From a virus, in IMG/VR virus record IMGVR_UViG_3300036766_002269, positions 1 to 34,506 of that record: DNA of 34,506 bases. One strand, 5' to 3'. A program made the translations under genes and the position numbers. A model generated the notes under the pieces. It had not been told where the DNA came from. It ran no database searches and was given only the letters and a program-made list of their open reading frames with translations. Each line of letters begins with the position of its first letter. Within the stretch, counting starts at the first letter, position 1. Shown here piece by piece: positions 938-29,705 of this stretch.

Positions 938-1151
938 ATGCGCAACCAGCTCGCCAAGATGATCGCCGACATGGCGACCGGCGAGGCTGAGCCGGATCCG
1001 GAGCAGCCCGCCAAGAACTCGGCGGCGGTCGCGCTGGGTAAGCTCGGCGGCGCGAAGGGTGGCAAGGCGCGGGGCTGCGAAGCTGACGGCTGAGCAGCGC
1101 TCGGAGATCGCCAAGAAGACGGCTGCGGCGCGGTGGGAGAAGTCTCGCTAA
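938..1151 (+). pseudogene. Frameshifted KGG-type small basic protein, 5' end lost to IS21
   Basis: Reading from ATG 938 gives a short helical start (RNQLAKMIADMATGEAE), then the hallmark AAVALGKLGGAKGGKAR stretch of the small KGG-repeat proteins widespread in bacteria, followed by a stop in the wrong frame. Deleting one G from the GGGG run at 1071-1074 restores the family's ending: A-AKLTAEQRSEIAKK and then ARWEKSR, with a stop at 1149-1151. The gene is therefore broken by a one-base insertion, or the base is a homopolymer sequencing error. The usual N-terminal residues before the helix are missing, and the IS21 right end occupies their place. Function in the family is not established; the Lys/Gly-rich repeat suggests nucleic acid binding. 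It converges with the ImmA gene, overlapping by four bases. Confidence 0.75.
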
Positions 1152-2350
1152 CTCAGCCGCCGAAACGGGACCACATCCCCGCCATCGGCGCTCTCCCCGA
1201 TCGTTGATCGCTCCCTTGCATGATCCAGCAATCGGACCGGAGCGACATCATCCGCGAGGAACTCGGGCGGGAGTGAGGCGAATCGCTGCACGTCACGCGG
1301 ATTGAGATTGAGTCGATCCAGCATCTGAGCGGGTGATTGCAAACCTGCATCCACGATCAATTCGAAGGCGCGGGTCAAGGCGGTCGGATGCTCCGACGGG
1401 ATCATGTCGTCACCCGGCTCGGCCCGACGCCAGCCGCGGCGAGCAAGCGAGATCCACTGCCGTCGCGCGGCATTCTCATCCACGATCTTGAGATCAGCTG
1501 ACCGGTGGAGCATCGCCGCGACGGATACCTTCCACTTTGGCTTCAGGGCGCGCATGCCGTCGACGGTGGGAATCAGCAGGTCCTCCGCAAACGACTCGGC
1601 TGGCAGAAGGAATGCCGATGCGAACGCATTGGCCTCGGCCTCTAGCACGCTCAGTTCGGCGGGGATAGCGACCTGGGTCTTTGGCACAGCTCGGTGCATG
1701 ACCATGTGTCCAGTCTCGTGCGCCGCGTCGAAGCGTGACCGGGCGCGACTGCCCTTCTCATTCCCGAGGAAAACACACGGGCGCTCAGCGCCGGGAAGCC
1801 ACTTGGAGAAGGCATCGATTGCGGCCGACTCAGCCTCCCCCCTGGTGACGAAGCCACCCTTCGATTCGATGAGGGACACGGTGTTGTGGATTGGCCCATC
1901 GCCGAGGCCCCATTCCGCTCGAAGCCCGCTGGCGGCCTCCTCGATTGCCTCATCACTCAACGGCATTCTTCCCCGGTCGACGAGGACGGGAAATTGAACT
2001 GCCGGGAAGGTCACGTAGTCGGCGAGCCTAGCGACGATGTCACCGACCCACAACAGGCGGCGGTCTGCCGCAAGTCGCGAAGTCTTGGATGCTCCGGCGA
2101 GCGAGCGATAGAACGTCGGAGCATCGTCCTCGCCGCGCGGAGGGAGGGAAAAGAACCCGACAGGCATGTTGAGGACGCTGGCGATGCGATATAGGTTCTC
2201 GGGCTGTGGCGATAGCTCGCCATGCTCATAAGCCGAGATCGTCTGACGGGATACTCCGACAAGGTCCGCGAGGGTAACGATCATGAGCGACCGCGCTTCA
2301 CGTGCTTCCCTGAGGCGCGCACCAATGAATCCAGGAGTTCCAGGCTTCAC
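1148..2350 (-). CDS. XRE-family regulator fused to an ImmA/IrrE metallopeptidase
   Basis: This is a 400-residue fusion. Residues about 12-66 form an XRE helix-turn-helix (LADLVGVSRQTISAYEHGEL). After a linker comes an ImmA/IrrE (DUF955) zinc peptidase domain with the HETGH zinc motif at residues 211-215 and the downstream EAEANAFASAFLLP helix that carries the third ligand in this family. ImmA of ICEBs1 and IrrE of Deinococcus cleave repressors to release a stress or mobile-element response. Fused forms often partner an adjacent target protein. The ATG overlaps the stop of the 2347-3030 gene by four bases (ATGA), so the two are translationally coupled and the upstream protein is the obvious candidate partner. 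Whether it acts as a regulator, a toxin-antitoxin component or a defence switch is not shown by the sequence. Confidence 0.9.
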   Translation of the reverse strand: MKPGTPGFIGARLREAREARSLMIVTLADLVGVSRQTISAYEHGELSPQPENLYRIASVLNMPVGFFSLPPRGEDDAPTFYRSLAGASKTSRLAADRRLLWVGDIVARLADYVTFPAVQFPVLVDRGRMPLSDEAIEEAASGLRAEWGLGDGPIHNTVSLIESKGGFVTRGEAESAAIDAFSKWLPGAERPCVFLGNEKGSRARSRFDAAHETGHMVMHRAVPKTQVAIPAELSVLEAEANAFASAFLLPAESFAEDLLIPTVDGMRALKPKWKVSVAAMLHRSADLKIVDENAARRQWISLARRGWRRAEPGDDMIPSEHPTALTRAFELIVDAGLQSPAQMLDRLNLNPRDVQRFASLPPEFLADDVAPVRLLDHARERSTIGESADGGDVVPFRRLS

Positions 2351-22369: not shown

Positions 22370-23656
22370 TCAGGCGACCTTGAGGTTGCGGAAGACCGCG
22401 GCCGCCTTGGATGCCTTGAGAGCAACCGAGACCGGGCCCATCTCGACCTCGCCCTTCTTCACGGCGCCGGCCGTGGAGAAGTCGGGCAGCCACTGCTTCA
22501 CGAGCGGACCGGTGACCGCCACGCCGTGGAAGCCATCGAGGCCGAAGCGGACCGCGAAGAGGTCCGTCAGGCCGGTCTGCCCGGTTCCGCTGCCACCGCC
22601 GCCGGGCGTGGAGGTCGTCACCGCCACGGCCGGCGTGGTGCCGCCCGTGAACGACCCGGTCGCGGTCATCTGCGCCACGTTGACGCCCGCGTACTGGCCG
22701 ACGAAGGTGACGAGGACGGCCGTTCCCGGGAGCGCGCCACCGGTGGCGGTGACCTCGCCGGTGTCGATGTTCGAGAGCGCCTCGAGCGCCGAGACGACGG
22801 CCGACGCGGCCGCGTTGTAGGCGATCGCCGCCGTGGTCTGCCCCGCGAACGTCAGGGTGAACGTGCCACCCGTGGGCGTGCCGGTGATCGTGACGGTCTG
22901 GACCTCGTTGGTCCCGGCATACGTGGCGATCACGTCGCTCGACGAGCCGGCCTTGGCGCCGAGGTCGATGAGCGGGATGTCCCGGAAGCGCTGGATGGGG
23001 CGGCCGAAGGCGTCGGTCGTCTTGTCGAGCTGGCCCGACAGCGCGGCGATCAGGGTGAACCACGAGAACGCCGTGCCGTTCATCAGCAGGGCGTCCGGCG
23101 GCCCGTCCATGAGCCCGAGCCAGGCGTTGATCTTCTGAACTGTCTGGAGCGCCAGAATCTGCGTGTTGATCGCGGTCCAGTTCTCGACGCGGCCGGCGTT
23201 GTACTCGGTGGACGAGGCGATGAGCGCCTTGCTGAGGCCGTCGAAGCCGTCGGCGGTCACCCCGGTATCGCCGTTGATGACCTGGTCGGCGAAGTACGCC
23301 TTGGCGGCCTTGATGAGCTGGCTGAGCTGGAAGCTCACCTCGGAGATGGCCCCGATACCCTCGAGGACACGGTCGATCTCGAAGCTCCCGCCGAGGGGTC
23401 GAAGGTCGGTCGTGTACGGCTGCTTGGTGACCTCGGCCGGGGTGTACTCCGCGTTGATGGCGCGGAAGGCGGCCGAGCGCTGGGTGATCTGGCGGGTGTA
23501 GCCGTAGGTCAGCGTGGAGCCGCCACCGGCGGGGTTGACGGACTGGTCGAACGGCAGCCGATCGAGCAGGAAGCTCGACTTGCGGAACTCGTCGATGACG
23601 TTGCGGTCGATGTCGCTCGCGGCATTGAGGCTCGCCTGGGCGAGAGTCACGGGCAC
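22370..23656 (-). CDS. HK97-type major capsid protein with inserted Ig-like domain
   Basis: This 428-residue protein starts at GTG 23656. Capsid-type sequence runs through FRKSSFLLDRLPFDQSVNPA, the TYGYTRQITQR region, LMNGTAFSWFTLIAAL and RPIQRFRDIPLIDLG. It resumes with LTDLFAVRFGLDGFHGVAV and GEVEMGPVSVALKASKAA. Between them, about residues 250-355, lies an extra beta domain (VQTVTITGTPTGGTFTLTF, TTAAIAYNAAASAVVSALEA, GTAVLVTFVGQYAGVNVAQM) followed by a Gly-rich linker. Modules of this kind occur on phage virion surfaces. The scaffold gene lies upstream and the connector genes downstream. Confidence 0.9.
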   Translation of the reverse strand: MPVTLAQASLNAASDIDRNVIDEFRKSSFLLDRLPFDQSVNPAGGGSTLTYGYTRQITQRSAAFRAINAEYTPAEVTKQPYTTDLRPLGGSFEIDRVLEGIGAISEVSFQLSQLIKAAKAYFADQVINGDTGVTADGFDGLSKALIASSTEYNAGRVENWTAINTQILALQTVQKINAWLGLMDGPPDALLMNGTAFSWFTLIAALSGQLDKTTDAFGRPIQRFRDIPLIDLGAKAGSSSDVIATYAGTNEVQTVTITGTPTGGTFTLTFAGQTTAAIAYNAAASAVVSALEALSNIDTGEVTATGGALPGTAVLVTFVGQYAGVNVAQMTATGSFTGGTTPAVAVTTSTPGGGGSGTGQTGLTDLFAVRFGLDGFHGVAVTGPLVKQWLPDFSTAGAVKKGEVEMGPVSVALKASKAAAVFRNLKVA

Positions 23657-23693: not shown

Positions 23694-24284
23694 TCAGTGC
23701 TTCTGCTCGTAGTGGTCGCGGATGGACGACTCGAGATCCTTCGGTCGGTCCGATTGGGGCGTCTGGACGCCTCGGGTGACGGTTCCGGCGCCCGCCGTGG
23801 CGAACATCTCCGGAGCCTCTTTCTTGAGCGCGGCGACGGCCGCCTCGAGGTCGATCACCCGACCCTCGTCGTCGACCACGAGGGCCGCGAAGTGGTCGGA
23901 CTTCATCGCGAGCTCCACGAGGGCGTCGTTGGCGAGGCCTGCGGATCGGAGGGCCGAGCGGACCTCTGAACGGCGGAGCTTCGTCTCGAACTTGGCGCGC
24001 TCTTCGGCGGCCGCCTCGCGCTTCGCCTGGGCAAGCGCCTTCTCCTGGTCGGTCTGGGTTGCGGACCGGAGATCGGCAAGCTCCTTCTCGGCGGCTTCGG
24101 CTCGACGCTGCGCATCGCGCTCAGCGGAGCGAAGTTCGCGGAGGACCTTCTTGCCGGCCTCACCGAGGTCGTCCTCGCCCGTCGCGGGCTTGGGCTCGGC
24201 TGGTGCCGTGGTTGCCGGACCGGCCTGCACAGGCGTCGCGCCTGTGCCGGGCATCGCGCCCGTGGTCGAGTCGTTCTCTGACAT
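23694..24284 (-). CDS. Capsid scaffolding protein
   Basis: This 196-residue protein lies immediately upstream of the capsid gene. It has a low-complexity Pro/Ala/Thr N-terminus (about 1-36) and a long, highly charged coiled coil (about 38-108: EAGKKVLRELRSAERDAQRR, AEAAEKELADLRSATQTDQE). The helical C-terminal half ends in basic and acidic residues (DLESSIRDHYEQKH). Size, composition and position are those of siphovirus scaffolds, which template the procapsid and are then lost. The ATG follows the stop of the preceding small frame directly (TAGATG). Confidence 0.87.
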   Translation of the reverse strand: MSENDSTTGAMPGTGATPVQAGPATTAPAEPKPATGEDDLGEAGKKVLRELRSAERDAQRRAEAAEKELADLRSATQTDQEKALAQAKREAAAEERAKFETKLRRSEVRSALRSAGLANDALVELAMKSDHFAALVVDDEGRVIDLEAAVAALKKEAPEMFATAGAGTVTRGVQTPQSDRPKDLESSIRDHYEQKH

Positions 24285-24569: not shown

Positions 24570-25166
24570 GTGAGCTGGTGGGGTCGCTCCTGGGTCGCGG
24601 TGTTCCATGGTGTCGAGCCGCACGCGGAACGCCTCCGGATGATCGCCGGGGCGTTGATGATCGGTGGTGGGGCCGGCTGGAGCGTCTCCTTCATCCGGTT
24701 CGCGACCGAGCACCCGGGGTTTGACGATCCGCTCTGGATGTGGCCCTTCCTCTCCGCGGCCCTCCTCGGGAGCGGCGCGCTCCTGGCGATCCTCGCCCGT
24801 TGGGCTCCAGTGTCGGGCGGGCGAGCGCGGGCGGGGGCGGCGCTGGTCGCCACGGCGGTCGCCGGCTTCGTGCCCGCCCTCGCGATCATCGCGATTCTCA
24901 CGTTCGTCGCGGGCTCGCTGGTGCTTGGTGCAGGGCTCAGTCGTTCGGCCCAAACGAGGCTGCCGGGTCTTCTGATCGCAGTCGCGACCGGACTGTTCAT
25001 CCTGACCCGGCCATGGATGCTCGGGGAAGTGCAGACCGGCAGCGCCCTCGCGGCGCAGGAAGTCGTCGAGGTCGTCCTGGCGATCACCCTCGGTGCCGGC
25101 TGGGCGTTTCTGGGGTTCACGTGCCTTCGAGGCGGACGCGGCCCGTCAGCGGTGGGAGAGGGTTGA
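24570..25166 (+). CDS. Membrane protein on the opposite strand, probable moron
   Basis: The product is 198 residues from GTG 24570 behind a perfect AGGAGG (24557-24562). About five hydrophobic segments are visible: IAGALMIGGGAGWSVSFI, WPFLSAALLGSGALLAILA, ALVATAVAGFVPALAIIAIL with TFVAGSLVLGAG, LPGLLIAVATGLFILT, and EVVLAITLGAGWAFLGF. It is the only plus-strand gene inside the minus-strand late operon, between the fibre block and the scaffold. That is how morons (prophage-expressed cargo, often altering the host envelope or excluding other phages) sit. Flanking phage frames appear damaged exactly at its borders. The family is not recognised, and its promoter was not identified with confidence. 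Confidence 0.75.
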   Translation: MSWWGRSWVAVFHGVEPHAERLRMIAGALMIGGGAGWSVSFIRFATEHPGFDDPLWMWPFLSAALLGSGALLAILARWAPVSGGRARAGAALVATAVAGFVPALAIIAILTFVAGSLVLGAGLSRSAQTRLPGLLIAVATGLFILTRPWMLGEVQTGSALAAQEVVEVVLAITLGAGWAFLGFTCLRGGRGPSAVGEG

Positions 25167-25306
25167 CAGTAGCGCTGCTCGGGGTCGGGGACCCAGAGGA
25201 CCGCGGCGAACTCGCCGAACAGCGGGGCTTCGGTCAGCTCGAGGTGGCCTGGTTGCATCGGGGCTTCGAGGTCCTGCGGCTCGCCCGCGCGCGGCCTACG
25301 CACCAT
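25167..25306 (-). pseudogene. 5' part of a small phage gene running into the moron
   Basis: ATG 25306 overlaps the stop of the preceding gene as TGATG, a strong sign of a real coupled start. The frame MVRRPRAGEPQDLEAPMQPG, HLELTEAPLFGEFAAVLWVP, DPEQRYCQ has strong G/C third-position bias. At about 25,166, exactly the stop codon of the opposite-strand membrane gene, the coding character ends. The frame then stays open through the antisense of that gene with shadow-like Ser/Thr/Arg/Pro-rich content. I infer that insertion of the membrane gene removed the 3' end. Confidence 0.5.
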
Positions 25307-25617
25307 CAGGCACCCGACCCGGCGAAGGACGTGGTGACGTTGAACGTGCTCTCCTCGGCCGCCGTGACCGTGCCCGTGCCTTCCCAGCGGAAGTAGTGCA
25401 GGCCCGCCGCGACGACCGGGATGTCGGCGTGGTAGAGCCCGACGCTGTCCTTCACGACCTGCGCATCGGTGCCGTACGCCCACGTCGTCTCGACACCGCC
25501 AGCCACGCGCCACTTCAGGCGCACGATCGTCGGATCGGTCAGTACGCCCGCCGCGGTCGCGAACCCGGGCGTCGTGGACACGCGGACGATGTCGCCGGGG
25601 TTGATGTTGTCAGCCAT
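25306..25617 (-). CDS. Small phage structural protein, beta sandwich-like
   Basis: This is a 103-residue protein. The sequence ADNINPGDIVRVSTTPGF, RLKWRVAGGVETTWAYG, DSVGLYHADIPVVAAGLHYF and RWEGTGTVTAAEESTFNV is a string of beta strands typical of an immunoglobulin-like or polycystic-kidney-type domain. It probably forms part of the virion surface or tail fibre. Its ATG overlaps the repeat-protein gene by eight bases and follows GGAG. Confidence 0.7.
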   Translation of the reverse strand: MADNINPGDIVRVSTTPGFATAAGVLTDPTIVRLKWRVAGGVETTWAYGTDAQVVKDSVGLYHADIPVVAAGLHYFRWEGTGTVTAAEESTFNVTTSFAGSGA

Positions 25618-26536
25618 GGTCGGCTCCTACGCTGTCGCGCACCGCGGCGCTCGCACCCACGCTGGTGGAACCCGCGGTGGCCGAGACGCTGTCGCGCAGC
25701 GCGGCGCCCGCACCCACGCTGCCGCGCCCCGCCGCGAACCCGACCGTCGGCGCCCGAAGGGCCAGGATCGCGGCTACCGGCGGGGGCATGAGCGTCAGGA
25801 CGTGCCCGAACACTGCGGCCGGGACCGTCAGGTCGACCGCGATCGGCTGGGGCGCGAGCGCCATGATGAGCGCGAGCAGCGGTGCCGGGACCGTCAGGCG
25901 CGCGACAACCGGGGCGGGTGCGATGCCGAGGTCGATGGCCGGCGCCGGGACGCCCGCGGTCGCCGCAACGGGGTCGGGCGAGAGGTTGAGGAGCGTCGCC
26001 AGGACCGACACCGGGACGACGAGGGTGGCCGTCACCGGGGCGGGTGTGAGGGTGATGGTCGGCGCGGCGCCGCTGTCGATCGTCGGCTCCGGGACGGCGG
26101 TCACGGCCGCGATCGGGCTGGGCGCCAGCGTCAACGCAAGGTCCAGCGTGGGGACGGTGACGGCGCTCGATGCGGCGACAGGATCAGGGCTCAGGTCCAA
26201 CGTCCGGTCGAGCGTCGGCGTCGGGACGACCGTCGCGGTGGCGAGCGAACCGGGTGTCAGGGTGAGGACATGGCCCAGTGCGGGCACCGGGACCGCGACG
26301 ACCGTCGCGACCGGACTCGGCGAGATCGTCTGGTCGACGAGCACCGACGCGACGGGTACGGCGCTGACGGCGGCGACCGGAGACGGCGCGAGCGCGAGGA
26401 TCGTGTCCACCGTCGGCACGGTGACCGCCACAGACGCAGCGACTGGGTCAGGCGCGAGTGTCGTGGCCGCGACTTGCCCCGGGACGAGGCCGACCTGCAC
26501 CCCTCTGGCTGGGAATCCTCTACCTAGCCGAGCCAT
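25610..26536 (-). CDS. Proline-rich tandem-repeat phage protein
   Basis: This 308-residue protein is built almost entirely of about ten or eleven imperfect units of 20-26 residues: L-x-P-(D/S/A)-P-V-A-A-x-x-A-V-P-x-P-T-(I/L/V)-D-x-x-L. Examples are LSPDPVAASSAVTVPTLDLA and LAPSPIAAVTAVPEPTIDSG. Hydrophobic residues alternate with Ala/Thr, and almost no charged residues occur except the Asp. A different repeat follows at the C-terminus: GSVGAGAALRDSVSATAG, then STSVGASAAVRDSVGADHG. No signal peptide is evident. The pattern suggests a stacked beta-repeat rod or fibre. The neighbouring genes look like virion surface proteins. I have seen similar P-x-P-V-A-A-type repeats in phage hypothetical proteins, but know no function. 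Confidence 0.75.
   Translation of the reverse strand: MARLGRGFPARGVQVGLVPGQVAATTLAPDPVAASVAVTVPTVDTILALAPSPVAAVSAVPVASVLVDQTISPSPVATVVAVPVPALGHVLTLTPGSLATATVVPTPTLDRTLDLSPDPVAASSAVTVPTLDLALTLAPSPIAAVTAVPEPTIDSGAAPTITLTPAPVTATLVVPVSVLATLLNLSPDPVAATAGVPAPAIDLGIAPAPVVARLTVPAPLLALIMALAPQPIAVDLTVPAAVFGHVLTLMPPPVAAILALRAPTVGFAAGRGSVGAGAALRDSVSATAGSTSVGASAAVRDSVGADHG
25629..25721 (-). repeat. Two 36-bp near-identical direct repeats, 57-base period
   Basis: ACGCTGTCGCGCACCGCGGC and onward (25629-25664) recurs at 25686-25721 with two mismatches in 36 bases. The repeats encode the SVGAGAALRDSV / SVGASAAVRDSV units at the end of the repeat protein. Confidence 0.8.
25815..26465 (-). repeat. 60-78-bp imperfect tandem repeats in a coding region
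   Basis: GGGAC-type anchor points occur at 25821, 25887, 25947, 26013, 26091, 26151, 26223 and 26289, with diverged anchors at 26355 and 26415. The steps are 66, 60, 66, 78, 60, 72, 66, 66 and 60 bases. All are multiples of six, so units vary by two residues at a time, as expected if strands alternate in and out of a sheet. Confidence 0.75.
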
Positions 26537-26539
26537 GTC

Positions 26540-27223
26540 TCACCACACCGCGGCGCGCTGGACGGCTTGCGGAACGAGGATGCCCGAGGCGGAGCGCTCC
26601 CAGTCGATCGTCAGGCTGCACTCGAACCATGACCGTAGCGTGGTGGTCGTGTCCGTCTCGTTCGCGGCGAGATCGCCCGTTCCCGCTGGGTCCGAGCCGA
26701 AGGCCAGCGTGCCGGAGATGGACACGCCGGAGGAGTCCTTGTGGCCGACCTCCAGCGTCAGACGGTCGCCCGCGACGGTCGTGTAGGCCGCGCCCGAGGC
26801 GGTCGCGGCAAGGAACGTCAGGTTCCGCAGCGACGTGTTCCACTCCACGACTGAGGTCGCGTTGGCGATGGCGATGAGCGTGGCCTGCACGGTGGAACCA
26901 TCGCGGCTGATGACCGTTACACGGCGCACGCGGTTGACGATGTTGTCGTTGGCGCCCGACTCGAGGCCGAGTATCTGGCAGGAGAACGTCGTGCCGGTGG
27001 TGAAGGCGACCCCCGCAGCCATGCAGGGCGAGACGTACTGGCGGTGCAGCGCGTTCTGCCCGGCGGTCGAGGAGACGGCGGAGCCGCTGGCGATGCCATC
27101 GCCCGCCCGCCGGGACTCGTGCATCATCCGGCGGACGGCCGCGGCGGTCGTGTTCCAGCCCGTGTCGAACGCCGGGGAGGCCTCCGCGGCGAGCGTGGAG
27201 TCGAGATAGAGGCGGGAGGTCAC
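26540..27223 (-). CDS. Phage structural protein, fibre-like
   Basis: The product is 227 residues from GTG 27223. The start SRLYLDSTLAAEASPAFDTG, WNTTAAAVRRMM and the following beta-rich segments (TTGTTFSCQILGLESGAN, RRVTVISRDGSTVQATLI, GDRLTLEVGHKDSSGVSIS, TLRSWFECSLTIDWER) resemble virion surface or tail appendage proteins of environmental siphophages. It is encoded within the block between portal and scaffold, three bases before the repeat protein. No enzymatic motif is seen. Confidence 0.65.
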   Translation of the reverse strand: MTSRLYLDSTLAAEASPAFDTGWNTTAAAVRRMMHESRRAGDGIASGSAVSSTAGQNALHRQYVSPCMAAGVAFTTGTTFSCQILGLESGANDNIVNRVRRVTVISRDGSTVQATLIAIANATSVVEWNTSLRNLTFLAATASGAAYTTVAGDRLTLEVGHKDSSGVSISGTLAFGSDPAGTGDLAANETDTTTTLRSWFECSLTIDWERSASGILVPQAVQRAAVW

Positions 27224-27232
27224 GCCGGGCGC

Positions 27233-27700
27233 CTAGCAGCGTTCCCAGTGCAGGGTCGCCCGAGCGTTCACGATGGCCGGCGCCGTGCAGCGGATCAGGA
27301 AGCCCTCGGAGACGGCGCAGTCATACGTCGTCCCGAGCGGGAGCTGGAGCACCACCCCGGCCTGCGGATGGAACAGGAACTCATCGAGCACGGTGATCGC
27401 CGTCGGCTCAGCCGTCCAGTTCGACGCCGCCGTCGCACCTGCGGCGATGACGCGGCCGTAGGCCTGAACCGGGGTGCGGCTCGTGGAGTTGGTGCCGGGT
27501 GGGTTCGTGGCGAACGTGCAGTAGCAGAGTTCGACCAGCACCGGCACGGCCGAACCCGAGGCACCGTCGAACTGCACGCTCGCCCCGATGAGGTCCATGC
27601 CGTTGCCCGTCGGGGCCTTGATGCCGAGGATGCTCTTGGCCGTCGCTGCCGCCAGGGCGACCGCTGCGCTCGTCGTGACCTTGTATCCGACGCTAGCCAT
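27233..27700 (-). CDS. Small phage structural protein
   Basis: The product is 155 residues from ATG 27700 (MASVGYKVTTSAAVALAAAT). An upstream in-frame extension exists, but MASVGYK has a GGTGG-type site and the extension overlaps a better small frame. The sequence ILGIKAPTGNGMDLIGASVQ, GASGSAVPVLVELCYCTFAT, TVLDEFLFHPQAGVVLQLPL and APAIVNARATLHWERC looks like a jelly-roll virion protein. Related two-domain proteins are encoded by environmental phages next to fibre genes. The exact role is unknown. Confidence 0.65.
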   Translation of the reverse strand: MASVGYKVTTSAAVALAAATAKSILGIKAPTGNGMDLIGASVQFDGASGSAVPVLVELCYCTFATNPPGTNSTSRTPVQAYGRVIAAGATAASNWTAEPTAITVLDEFLFHPQAGVVLQLPLGTTYDCAVSEGFLIRCTAPAIVNARATLHWERC

Positions 27701-27770
27701 CTCGTCCACCCACGACGTCTTCGAGCGGGTGAAGCTCGGGGATTTCGTCCCCAAGGACGTTGCCGAACAT
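27693..27770 (-). CDS. Possible 25-residue ORF
   Basis: ATG 27770 (or ATG 27776, two codons earlier) lies behind AGGAG and reads MFGNVLGDEIPELHPLEDVV, then GGRDG. Third positions are mostly G/C. The stop overlaps the next gene's start region by eight bases. It could be a real micro-gene, or a leader that couples translation between its neighbours. It is too short for certainty. Confidence 0.3.
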   Translation of the reverse strand: MFGNVLGDEIPELHPLEDVVGGRDG

Positions 27771-27779
27771 GGGCATCTC

Positions 27780-28217
27780 CTAGGTGATCTGGAGGAGGCC
27801 TTCGACGTTGACGGTCAGGTTGACCGCGCCGCCGTTGCCGTTGAACGGGGTCACGTCCTTCCAGGCGACCGGGTAGTCGTTGGCGGTCGTTCCGTCGATC
27901 CGGACGTAATAGAGCATCCCGACGACCGAGCGCGTGCCGATGCCGACGGTCGCCCCGAACGTCCCGTCGCTGTAGTCGATCTCGCTGCGGTTGTTCGGGT
28001 CGTCCTCGTTGACCGAGACCCCGGCGAGGTCGAGCGCCGTGTAGCCCGAGCCGTCGTACTCGTCGAGGGTCGTGATCGCGGTGAGGGTGGCCGCGTCCTG
28101 GTCGGTGTTCGCGGTCGTGTTGCTCATGCACAGCTTGACCCGCAGGTCGACCGTGTCGAAGTCGAGGTCCGCCTTGGCGAGCTTCTGCTTCGCCGGGGTG
28201 TACCAGAAGTCAGCCAT
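27780..28217 (-). CDS. Phage structural protein downstream of portal
   Basis: This 145-residue protein starts ADFWYTPAKQKLAKADLDFD with AGGAG upstream. DTVDLRVKLCMSNTTANTDQ, EYDGSGYTALDLAGVSVNED, GIGTRSVVGMLYYVRIDGTT and AVNLTVNVEGLLQIT look like a compact beta-rich virion protein. I have seen relatives of this start in environmental phage genomes as tail fibre or decoration candidates. It is the first gene of the extra block inserted between portal and scaffold. Confidence 0.68.
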   Translation of the reverse strand: MADFWYTPAKQKLAKADLDFDTVDLRVKLCMSNTTANTDQDAATLTAITTLDEYDGSGYTALDLAGVSVNEDDPNNRSEIDYSDGTFGATVGIGTRSVVGMLYYVRIDGTTANDYPVAWKDVTPFNGNGGAVNLTVNVEGLLQIT

Positions 28218-28235: not shown

Positions 28236-29705
28236 CTACGTGCTGGCCGGGCTGGATTGCGCGGTTGCGCCGGGATCGGCCCCGGCCGGCGGCTGGAGCG
28301 TGGCGGGCAGGGGCCCGGCTGATTGCAGCGGCGGGGCGTCGGCGATCAGCCGTTTGATGCGGGCGATCTGCTGGGGCGAGTAGCCGAGGCCTTCCCAGAG
28401 GATCTCGTCGGGGATCCCGAGGCTCTTGTGCTTCACGAGCGCGTCGGTGTGGACGGCCTCGGTCCGGCTTTCGGGGTCCTTCCAGATGATCTCGGCGGCG
28501 GTGTCGTTGGCCCGCGGGTCGCCGCGGAAGAGGAAGTTCAGCCGGAAGACCTCTTCCCAGGACTCGCCCTTGTTGAGCATCGAGTCGGCGACCTTGGCCA
28601 TGAGCCCGGTCTCGGACGACTTGAGCGACTCACCTGACGGCGGCTGGCCCGACTGCGGGAGGAGGTAGTGGTAGGGCGTCCGGCTGATCGCGCCCAGGTG
28701 CTGGACCTCGGTGTCGATGCCGGCGTAGATCGGCGCGAGGTCGGTCTGCTCGAACTCCCCGAACTCGACCTTGGGCGGGTTGGGATCGTCGGGGTCGGGC
28801 GGGGGGACCATCCACAGGCGGTCGACCGCCGAGCGGAACGGCTCGACCGGCTGGCCGGTCTCGGGATCGACCGGGATGTCCATGCCGATGATCCAGCGCT
28901 GACGGAAGCTCGCGAACTCGGATGAGATGAGGGCGTCGGCGCGGAGCTTGTTGATCGCGTCCTGGTTGCTCATGACCATCGCGATCTCGGACTGCCCGTC
29001 GCCGGTGAGGCGCGGCCGGTTGGCGATCGGCACGATCGGGATGACGTTCAGCGGATTCGGCACTGGCCACGACTCGCCGTCCGGCTGATCGCGCTGCCAG
29101 AGCGCCGCGGAGGACCACGATGGCGAGCTGAACCAGTCTGAGCGCTGGATCGAGCGGAACTTGTAGATCCCATCGGGCAGGTACAGCTCGGCGCGGTAAC
29201 GGCCCTCGTCATCGAGCCAGCGCTTGAGCGCGGCCCGCCGCTTCCAGCTCTTGCCGGGCTCGGTCTCGACCACGACCTGGAGCGGAGACTCGATCGTCAC
29301 CTCGGGCGCGCCGGTCAGCGGATCGGGCCAGACGAGCGCGTAGGCGACGCCCTTGACGAGCGACTCGGTGTGCGCCTTCTGCGACTCGGCATCGAGCCGG
29401 TTGGCCTGCCACCAGCGCCAGGCGTCCGCGTCGCCCTCGGGCGCATCGCCGATCCGGATGCCCTGGACGTGGAGCCGCTCGCGGTGGGCGTCGACGACGA
29501 GCGCCATGAAGTTGGAGCTGAACGCCGGGAACCGGTCGCCGAATGCCTGGCGGAACTTGGCCGACGCGAAGGCGAGCGGCTGTTGCCCGGCGTAGTAATC
29601 CTCGTACTTCGTCATCGGGACGCGCCGATCGTCGAGGCGCCGACCGAGTCGGGCGAGCCACCACTCGAGGCTGCCGGGCACGAGCGTTCGGGTCGCGTCA
29701 AGCAT
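28236..29705 (-). CDS. Portal protein (SPP1 Gp6-like)
   Basis: This 489-residue protein forms the dodecameric DNA gate at one capsid vertex. It starts LEWWLARLGRRLDDRRVPM and YEDYYAGQQPLAFASAKFR, the classic KYxxYYxG(Q/E)QPL of Gp6-like actinophage portals. FSSNFMALVVDAHRERLHVQ, ESLVKGVAYALVWPDP and SNQDAINKLRADALISSEFA, followed by SGESLKSSETGLMAKVADSM, complete the signature. The tail is Pro/Ala-rich. The start is three bases after the large terminase stop. Confidence 0.93.
   Translation of the reverse strand: MLDATRTLVPGSLEWWLARLGRRLDDRRVPMTKYEDYYAGQQPLAFASAKFRQAFGDRFPAFSSNFMALVVDAHRERLHVQGIRIGDAPEGDADAWRWWQANRLDAESQKAHTESLVKGVAYALVWPDPLTGAPEVTIESPLQVVVETEPGKSWKRRAALKRWLDDEGRYRAELYLPDGIYKFRSIQRSDWFSSPSWSSAALWQRDQPDGESWPVPNPLNVIPIVPIANRPRLTGDGQSEIAMVMSNQDAINKLRADALISSEFASFRQRWIIGMDIPVDPETGQPVEPFRSAVDRLWMVPPPDPDDPNPPKVEFGEFEQTDLAPIYAGIDTEVQHLGAISRTPYHYLLPQSGQPPSGESLKSSETGLMAKVADSMLNKGESWEEVFRLNFLFRGDPRANDTAAEIIWKDPESRTEAVHTDALVKHKSLGIPDEILWEGLGYSPQQIARIKRLIADAPPLQSAGPLPATLQPPAGADPGATAQSSPAST

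Follow-up and report, generated by a model that had tools for sequence, protein, structure and literature searches.

The closest described relatives of the protein analyzed here are pairs of mycobacteriophage genes annotated as minor tail proteins: Corndog gp63/gp64, Firecracker gp61/gp62 and Brujita gp23/gp24. In a study of cluster O phages, Corndog gp63 and gp64 (402 bases each) were detected as minor tail proteins in twice-CsCl-banded virions, with 17 and 9 peptides, and Catdawg gp60 and gp61 were detected too, in an unpurified lysate (PMC4351075). Corndog gp63/gp64 were equated with Firecracker gp61/gp62 by gene size, by gene order and through the Catdawg relative, whose gp61 shares 99% identity with Firecracker gp62 and was confirmed from its sequence as an array. 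Firecracker gp61 belongs to phrog_644 (E 2e-51), as Corndog gp63 likely does, and directly after it gp62 (phrog_8501) holds a 133-residue array of 23-residue units; in Brujita, a similar array gene, gp24, follows the small gene gp23, itself untyped. A repeat stretch and a larger domain are combined in a single minor tail protein in phrog_553, phrog_13352 and Damien gp31: Firecracker gp62 resembles both phrog families at their N-terminus, and Damien gp31 carries its 23-residue array N-terminally. In a 2026 cryo-EM preprint on the Corndog baseplate, gp60 and gp61 are modelled as accessory proteins and gp63/gp64 go unmentioned, so that no structure shows a rod (PMC13252515). The Desulfofustis phage LS06-2018-MD02 encodes a 'virion structural protein' (618 aa) with a laminin-G lectin-type domain ahead of a 24-residue array, in the gene order TerL, phrog_644-like gene, laminin-G plus array, portal. 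The triple beta-spiral and other trimeric fibre shafts (adenovirus fibre, PRD1 P5) consist of short strand-turn repeats with prolines in the turns, vary in copy number and act as spacers.

Here we analyzed the 34,506-base DNA of an IMG/VR virus record (the window), which encodes an array of PxPVA repeats. The initial annotation knew of no function for such arrays, a statement now superseded, as mass spectrometry places a mycobacteriophage relative, encoded just downstream of the partner gene, among the virion proteins, although this does not by itself assign an exact role. We propose, with a probability of about 0.6, that the array protein serves as the repeat shaft in a modular virion appendage, that it came in with an inserted cassette and that recombination can adjust its length. 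The known kind to which it belongs is the phage minor tail or appendage repeat, of which the window array is an undescribed variant.

A 308-residue protein of 22-residue units

The array protein (308 aa) is encoded on the minus strand at 25610..26536, with an ATG start. It contains eleven PxP-type anchors, at residues 29, 51, 73, 95, 117, 139, 165, 187, 207, 229 and 251, the one at residue 95 being degenerate (PGSLA), and the spacings between them are, in order, 22, 22, 22, 22, 22, 26, 22, 20, 22 and 22 residues, that is, 66 bases in eight cases, 78 in one and 60 in one. The initial description, of some ten units that measure 60-78 bases, always a multiple of six, and carry almost no charge, holds, with D, E and R making up about 8% of a protein composed largely of A, V, P, L and T. 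Self-identity at a lag of 22 residues is 0.35 (z about 10 against shuffles). The repeat array proper (25721..26458, minus strand), delimited by the anchor positions and by alignment with 24 other array segments, comprises the 11 units and has the consensus (L)xPxPVAxxxxVPxPTVxxxxxL. It is preceded by an N-terminal lead, MARLGRGFPARG... (26459..26536, minus strand), which is common to the array protein of locus L011 (MARLGRIQPWRRP), and followed by a C-terminal tail, SVGAGAALRDSV..SVGASAAVRDSVGADHG (25613..25720, minus strand), which carries a shorter repeat and whose end resembles the L004 homologue (VRDHVGAEHG). The sole call that Tandem Repeats Finder made on the DNA of the array falls in this C-terminal part (25629-25736, a separate repeat of about 30 bases), indicating that the 22-aa units have diverged at the DNA level. 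The GC fractions of 0.76, 0.60 and 0.87 at codon positions 1, 2 and 3 mark the array ORF as typical of a GC-rich coding frame; two antisense ORFs across the array (25469-26527 and 25665-26786, plus strand) were judged to be by-products of high GC.

An additional block between portal and scaffold genes

The minus-strand gene order is small terminase (assigned by position), large terminase, portal, g145, g173, g227, array, g103, scaffold, major capsid, connectors, major tail, tape measure and Dit. The portal gene (28236..29705, minus strand; PF05133, phrog_104) borders the additional genes on the left in this order and the scaffold gene (23694..24284, minus strand; PF06810, phrog_4708) on the right, as initially annotated. 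Between them lie g145 (27780..28217; phrog_644, E 2.7e-7), the gene that accompanies the array family most constantly, separated from the array here by two genes; g173 (27233..27754), a cassette gene with a homologue in L011 (40%), likewise just before g227; g227 (26540..27223), which encodes a conserved head domain; the array; and g103 (25306..25617), a small protein with homologues placed by alignment and HMM after arrays in L004 (80%) and L060 (40%), all on the minus strand. A weak filamin match (E 0.0098) means that g103 is possibly Ig/filamin-like. With the g227 stop 3 bases ahead of the array start codon, an 8-base overlap between the array and g103 ORFs, and an AGGAG, read from the sequence within the last array codons (25624..25628, minus strand), as the likely ribosome-binding site of g103, the block g227-array-g103 looks translationally coupled.

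The view that these genes form an extra, fibre-like block agrees with the gene order of relatives. L002 and L003, about 82-92% identical to the window in most head and packaging genes, pass from portal to scaffold without the block, which is also absent from the more distant L005-L007, L009 and L010 and from four named phages (Success, Ibantik, P318 and Ponzi). By this comparison, g145-g173-g227-array-g103 is an insert between portal and scaffold. L004, whose terminase and portal are more than 90% identical to those of the window, carries relatives of g227 (36%) and g103 (about 80%) upstream of its small terminase; with related genes at two places in one backbone type, this is a movable cassette of fibre-like genes that passes between phages.

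Between g103 and scaffold, a plus-strand ORF of 198 aa (24570-25166) with several hydrophobic stretches runs opposite to the late genes; a Pfam search with it gave nothing above cut-off, and it could be a moron brought in with the cassette. That the insert is optional, lies in the head module and also holds a reversed, membrane-protein-like ORF would suit an array protein that is no virion component at all, one that helps in assembly or is a moron product co-expressed with the head genes. We regard this as highly improbable, given that the Corndog pair of phrog_644 protein and array occurs in twice-banded virions (PMC4351075) and that the named relatives are annotated as minor tail proteins.

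The window phage is a siphovirus. Its best named portal matches are in Streptomyces, Thermobifida and Arthrobacter phages, which makes an actinobacterial host likely, and a transcriptional regulator (1148-2350, minus strand; phrog_2439) with weak metallo-protease similarity suggests that the phage is temperate. The major capsid protein (22370-23656, minus strand) is extended at its C-terminus by what looks like an added domain (about residues 249-350), with a match to parts of major tail proteins (phrog_10909, 2e-16). No RNA families or tRNAs were found within the 34,506-base window.

The array family, its partner gene and its length

With a DNA pattern that describes two units in succession, we scanned viral contigs and found about 22 distinct homologous arrays in uncultured phages, many of them on different backbones; simple PVTVTV repeats and unrelated proline-rich frames among the matches were discarded by eye and by period. 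A stricter DNA pattern gave 16 matches and no arrays in 84,980 prokaryote genomes. A family profile from 25 segments finds all arrays, which is largely a consistency check because most of them built the profile; the window array, itself included, matches this 22-residue PxPVA profile with E 1e-50 and has the repeated 22-aa units with PxP-V and VPxP anchors that characterize the family. The consensus positions are P0-x-P2-V3 and V9-P10-x-P12-T13-V14, and both the period and the PxP positions are conserved across diverse phages. Literature searches returned no description of a 22-residue PxPVA repeat, which is a widespread, undescribed phage building block and no new kind of machine. Array sequences alone as queries gave nothing convincing among named phages, a failure that the low-complexity filter and divergence likely explain, and a search for loci related to the array returned only L011; the named relatives were reached solely via the partner gene.

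A profile of that gene, g145 (phrog_644), detected a same-strand homologue near 14 of the 22 arrays, upstream in 13, where the arrays themselves had been found by the array-only pattern and several of those without a nearby homologue are cut by contig ends; the window g145, included in the profile, scores 4e-63. None of nine array-less close portal relatives carries a homologue. Among named phages (L090-L094), phrog_644 homologues lie beside arrays, minor tail proteins and portals.

The window thus has a phrog_644-family gene upstream of its array, as Firecracker has one ahead of a short array of related units, and Brujita shows a similar arrangement. The phrog_8501 arrays nevertheless have a period of 23, about 5 units and a charged unit (xEPxxIxSTSxVxSPTVxVG), and the phrog_644/phrog_8501 pair closes the tail module, ahead of lysin A, whereas the window array, with its 11 almost uncharged units of 22, belongs to the head module. 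Among the arrays, L018 alone matches phrog_8501 (8.5e-15); the window array does not, and is thus a related kind outside that family. Compared with the Corndog-type array, the window array scores about 9 bits by phmmer and 19 bits with the family profile, with strong composition bias, so its direct link to Firecracker gp62 is weak, and the relationship is drawn through the L018 intermediate and the shared gene order. The Desulfofustis phage unit, 24 residues with (A/R)PxFPxLxV, is unlike that of the window, and no similarity between the two arrays is detectable by profile.

The domains joined to the repeats vary. Behind g227, the repeat is a separate ORF in the window, L011 and L014, and in L004, L012 and L015 it is fused to the g227 homologue in one frame, these fused repeats being of other types than the window array. 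A single g227 domain is thereby seen with three quite different repeats (L004:605-2029, L012:5959-8223 and L015:4986-6557; periods 18 (weak), 20 and 20). Elsewhere, PxPVA arrays are joined to a variety of N-terminal domains, and whereas phrog_553, phrog_13352 and Damien gp31 have a short array at the N-terminus, in most uncultured homologues the array follows another domain. Such fusions point to a shaft that carries exchangeable domains.

Lengthening by recombination, which the initial annotation had proposed, is borne out by a pair of sister arrays. L038 and L044 share one common array with nearly identical flanks, and L038 is longer by 88 residues, in frame, which is exactly four units (4 x 22). 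Unequal recombination between units explains this simply, and so clean a difference indicates that copy number changes by recombination; the proposed comparison of copy number among related phages could be made for this pair, the window array having no close relative to compare. The N-terminal domain differs between the sisters as well. This change, together with the in-frame length difference and the different repeats behind g227, might mean that the array is mainly a diversification device, in which recombination between units alters an exposed surface that tracks host receptors. We give that reading little credence: one case of altered length says little about adaptation, and dN/dS values of 0.41 (L038/L044) and 0.28 (L027/L047) place the array protein sequence under constraint, with residues within units under purifying rather than diversifying selection. 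Both sister arrays (L038:5531-7174 and L044:1211-3775) close with a cysteine-rich tail (CPECGG...CPMGHW) resembling a zinc ribbon, which would be odd for a fibre protein.

Unit length, fold and proposed role

The initial annotation held that the array varies in two-residue steps, as expected of strands with an alternating pattern. The window spacings agree with this, but the family does not follow it as a rule: over 23 arrays the spacings are 22 (134 cases), 20 (1), 23 (7), 24 (10), 25 (5) and 26 (3), so that 14 of those other than 22 are even and 12 odd (14 to 6 without L018), a bias at most. L018 and the mycobacteriophage relatives Firecracker, Damien and Brujita have a period of 23, beside the 18, 20 and 24 of the L004, L012/L015 and Desulfofustis phage arrays. 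One can divide the unit into strand 3-9, turn 10-13, strand 14-20 and turn 21-24, giving two strands of 7 residues linked by PxP turns of 4, and several arrays give half-period signals at lags of 10 to 12. Hydrophobic alternation is evident inside the second strand (z 5.7) and without significance inside the first (z 1.2), so that the alternating pattern stands for one half-unit only.

A beta-solenoid had been suggested on this basis, and 22 residues is a usual length for a beta-solenoid coil. Two strands and two turns per unit would let the array fold by itself as a two-sided solenoid, with one coil per unit and a binding face. AlphaFold2, however, gave a pLDDT of 37.2 when run on the whole protein by itself and of 42.5 on six units supplied with 25 aligned rows; with and without an alignment there is no confident fold, the models are too poor to judge by, and a monomeric beta-solenoid is left unsupported. 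Since the first strand also lacks significant alternation, we consider the solenoid quite unlikely.

A disordered tether or a fold formed only by an oligomer is possible at such pLDDT values. The former would make the array a flexible, Ala/Pro/Val-rich leash rather than a rod, in keeping with its composition as well as with the AlphaFold2 result. We judge it unlikely, since a disordered leash need not hold a 22-residue register, whereas period and PxP positions are conserved across diverse phages, and the alternation in the second half-unit and the dN/dS of 0.28-0.41 speak against it too. As for the latter, we tentatively entertain that the PxPVA unit has its own fibre fold, one that requires oligomerisation, and serves unrelated phages as an exchangeable, length-tunable head or tail shaft, with phrog_644 dedicated to it as partner or attachment protein.

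In the repeat-shaft reading that we favour, the cassette of g145, g173, g227, array and g103, inserted between portal and scaffold, would give rise to a multi-gene virion appendage. Each 22-residue unit would contribute two short strands and PxP turns, many stacked units would form a stiff or semi-stiff rod, the rod would keep adhesive or capping domains off the virion, and recombination between units would alter their number and hence the rod length. The rod shape, the spacer role, the presence of the protein in virions of the window phage and its place on them are what we infer. The array would work as a spacer much as triple beta-spiral shafts do, and sequence searches of the PDB with it gave no convincing match to solved structures.

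A widespread phage repeat that had no name thereby gains a partner gene, a precedent in virion proteomics and an observed change in length. The tuning of appendage length by phages and the role of the unannotated phrog_644 family become testable, and a regular, almost uncharged repeat rod may be of interest to protein designers.
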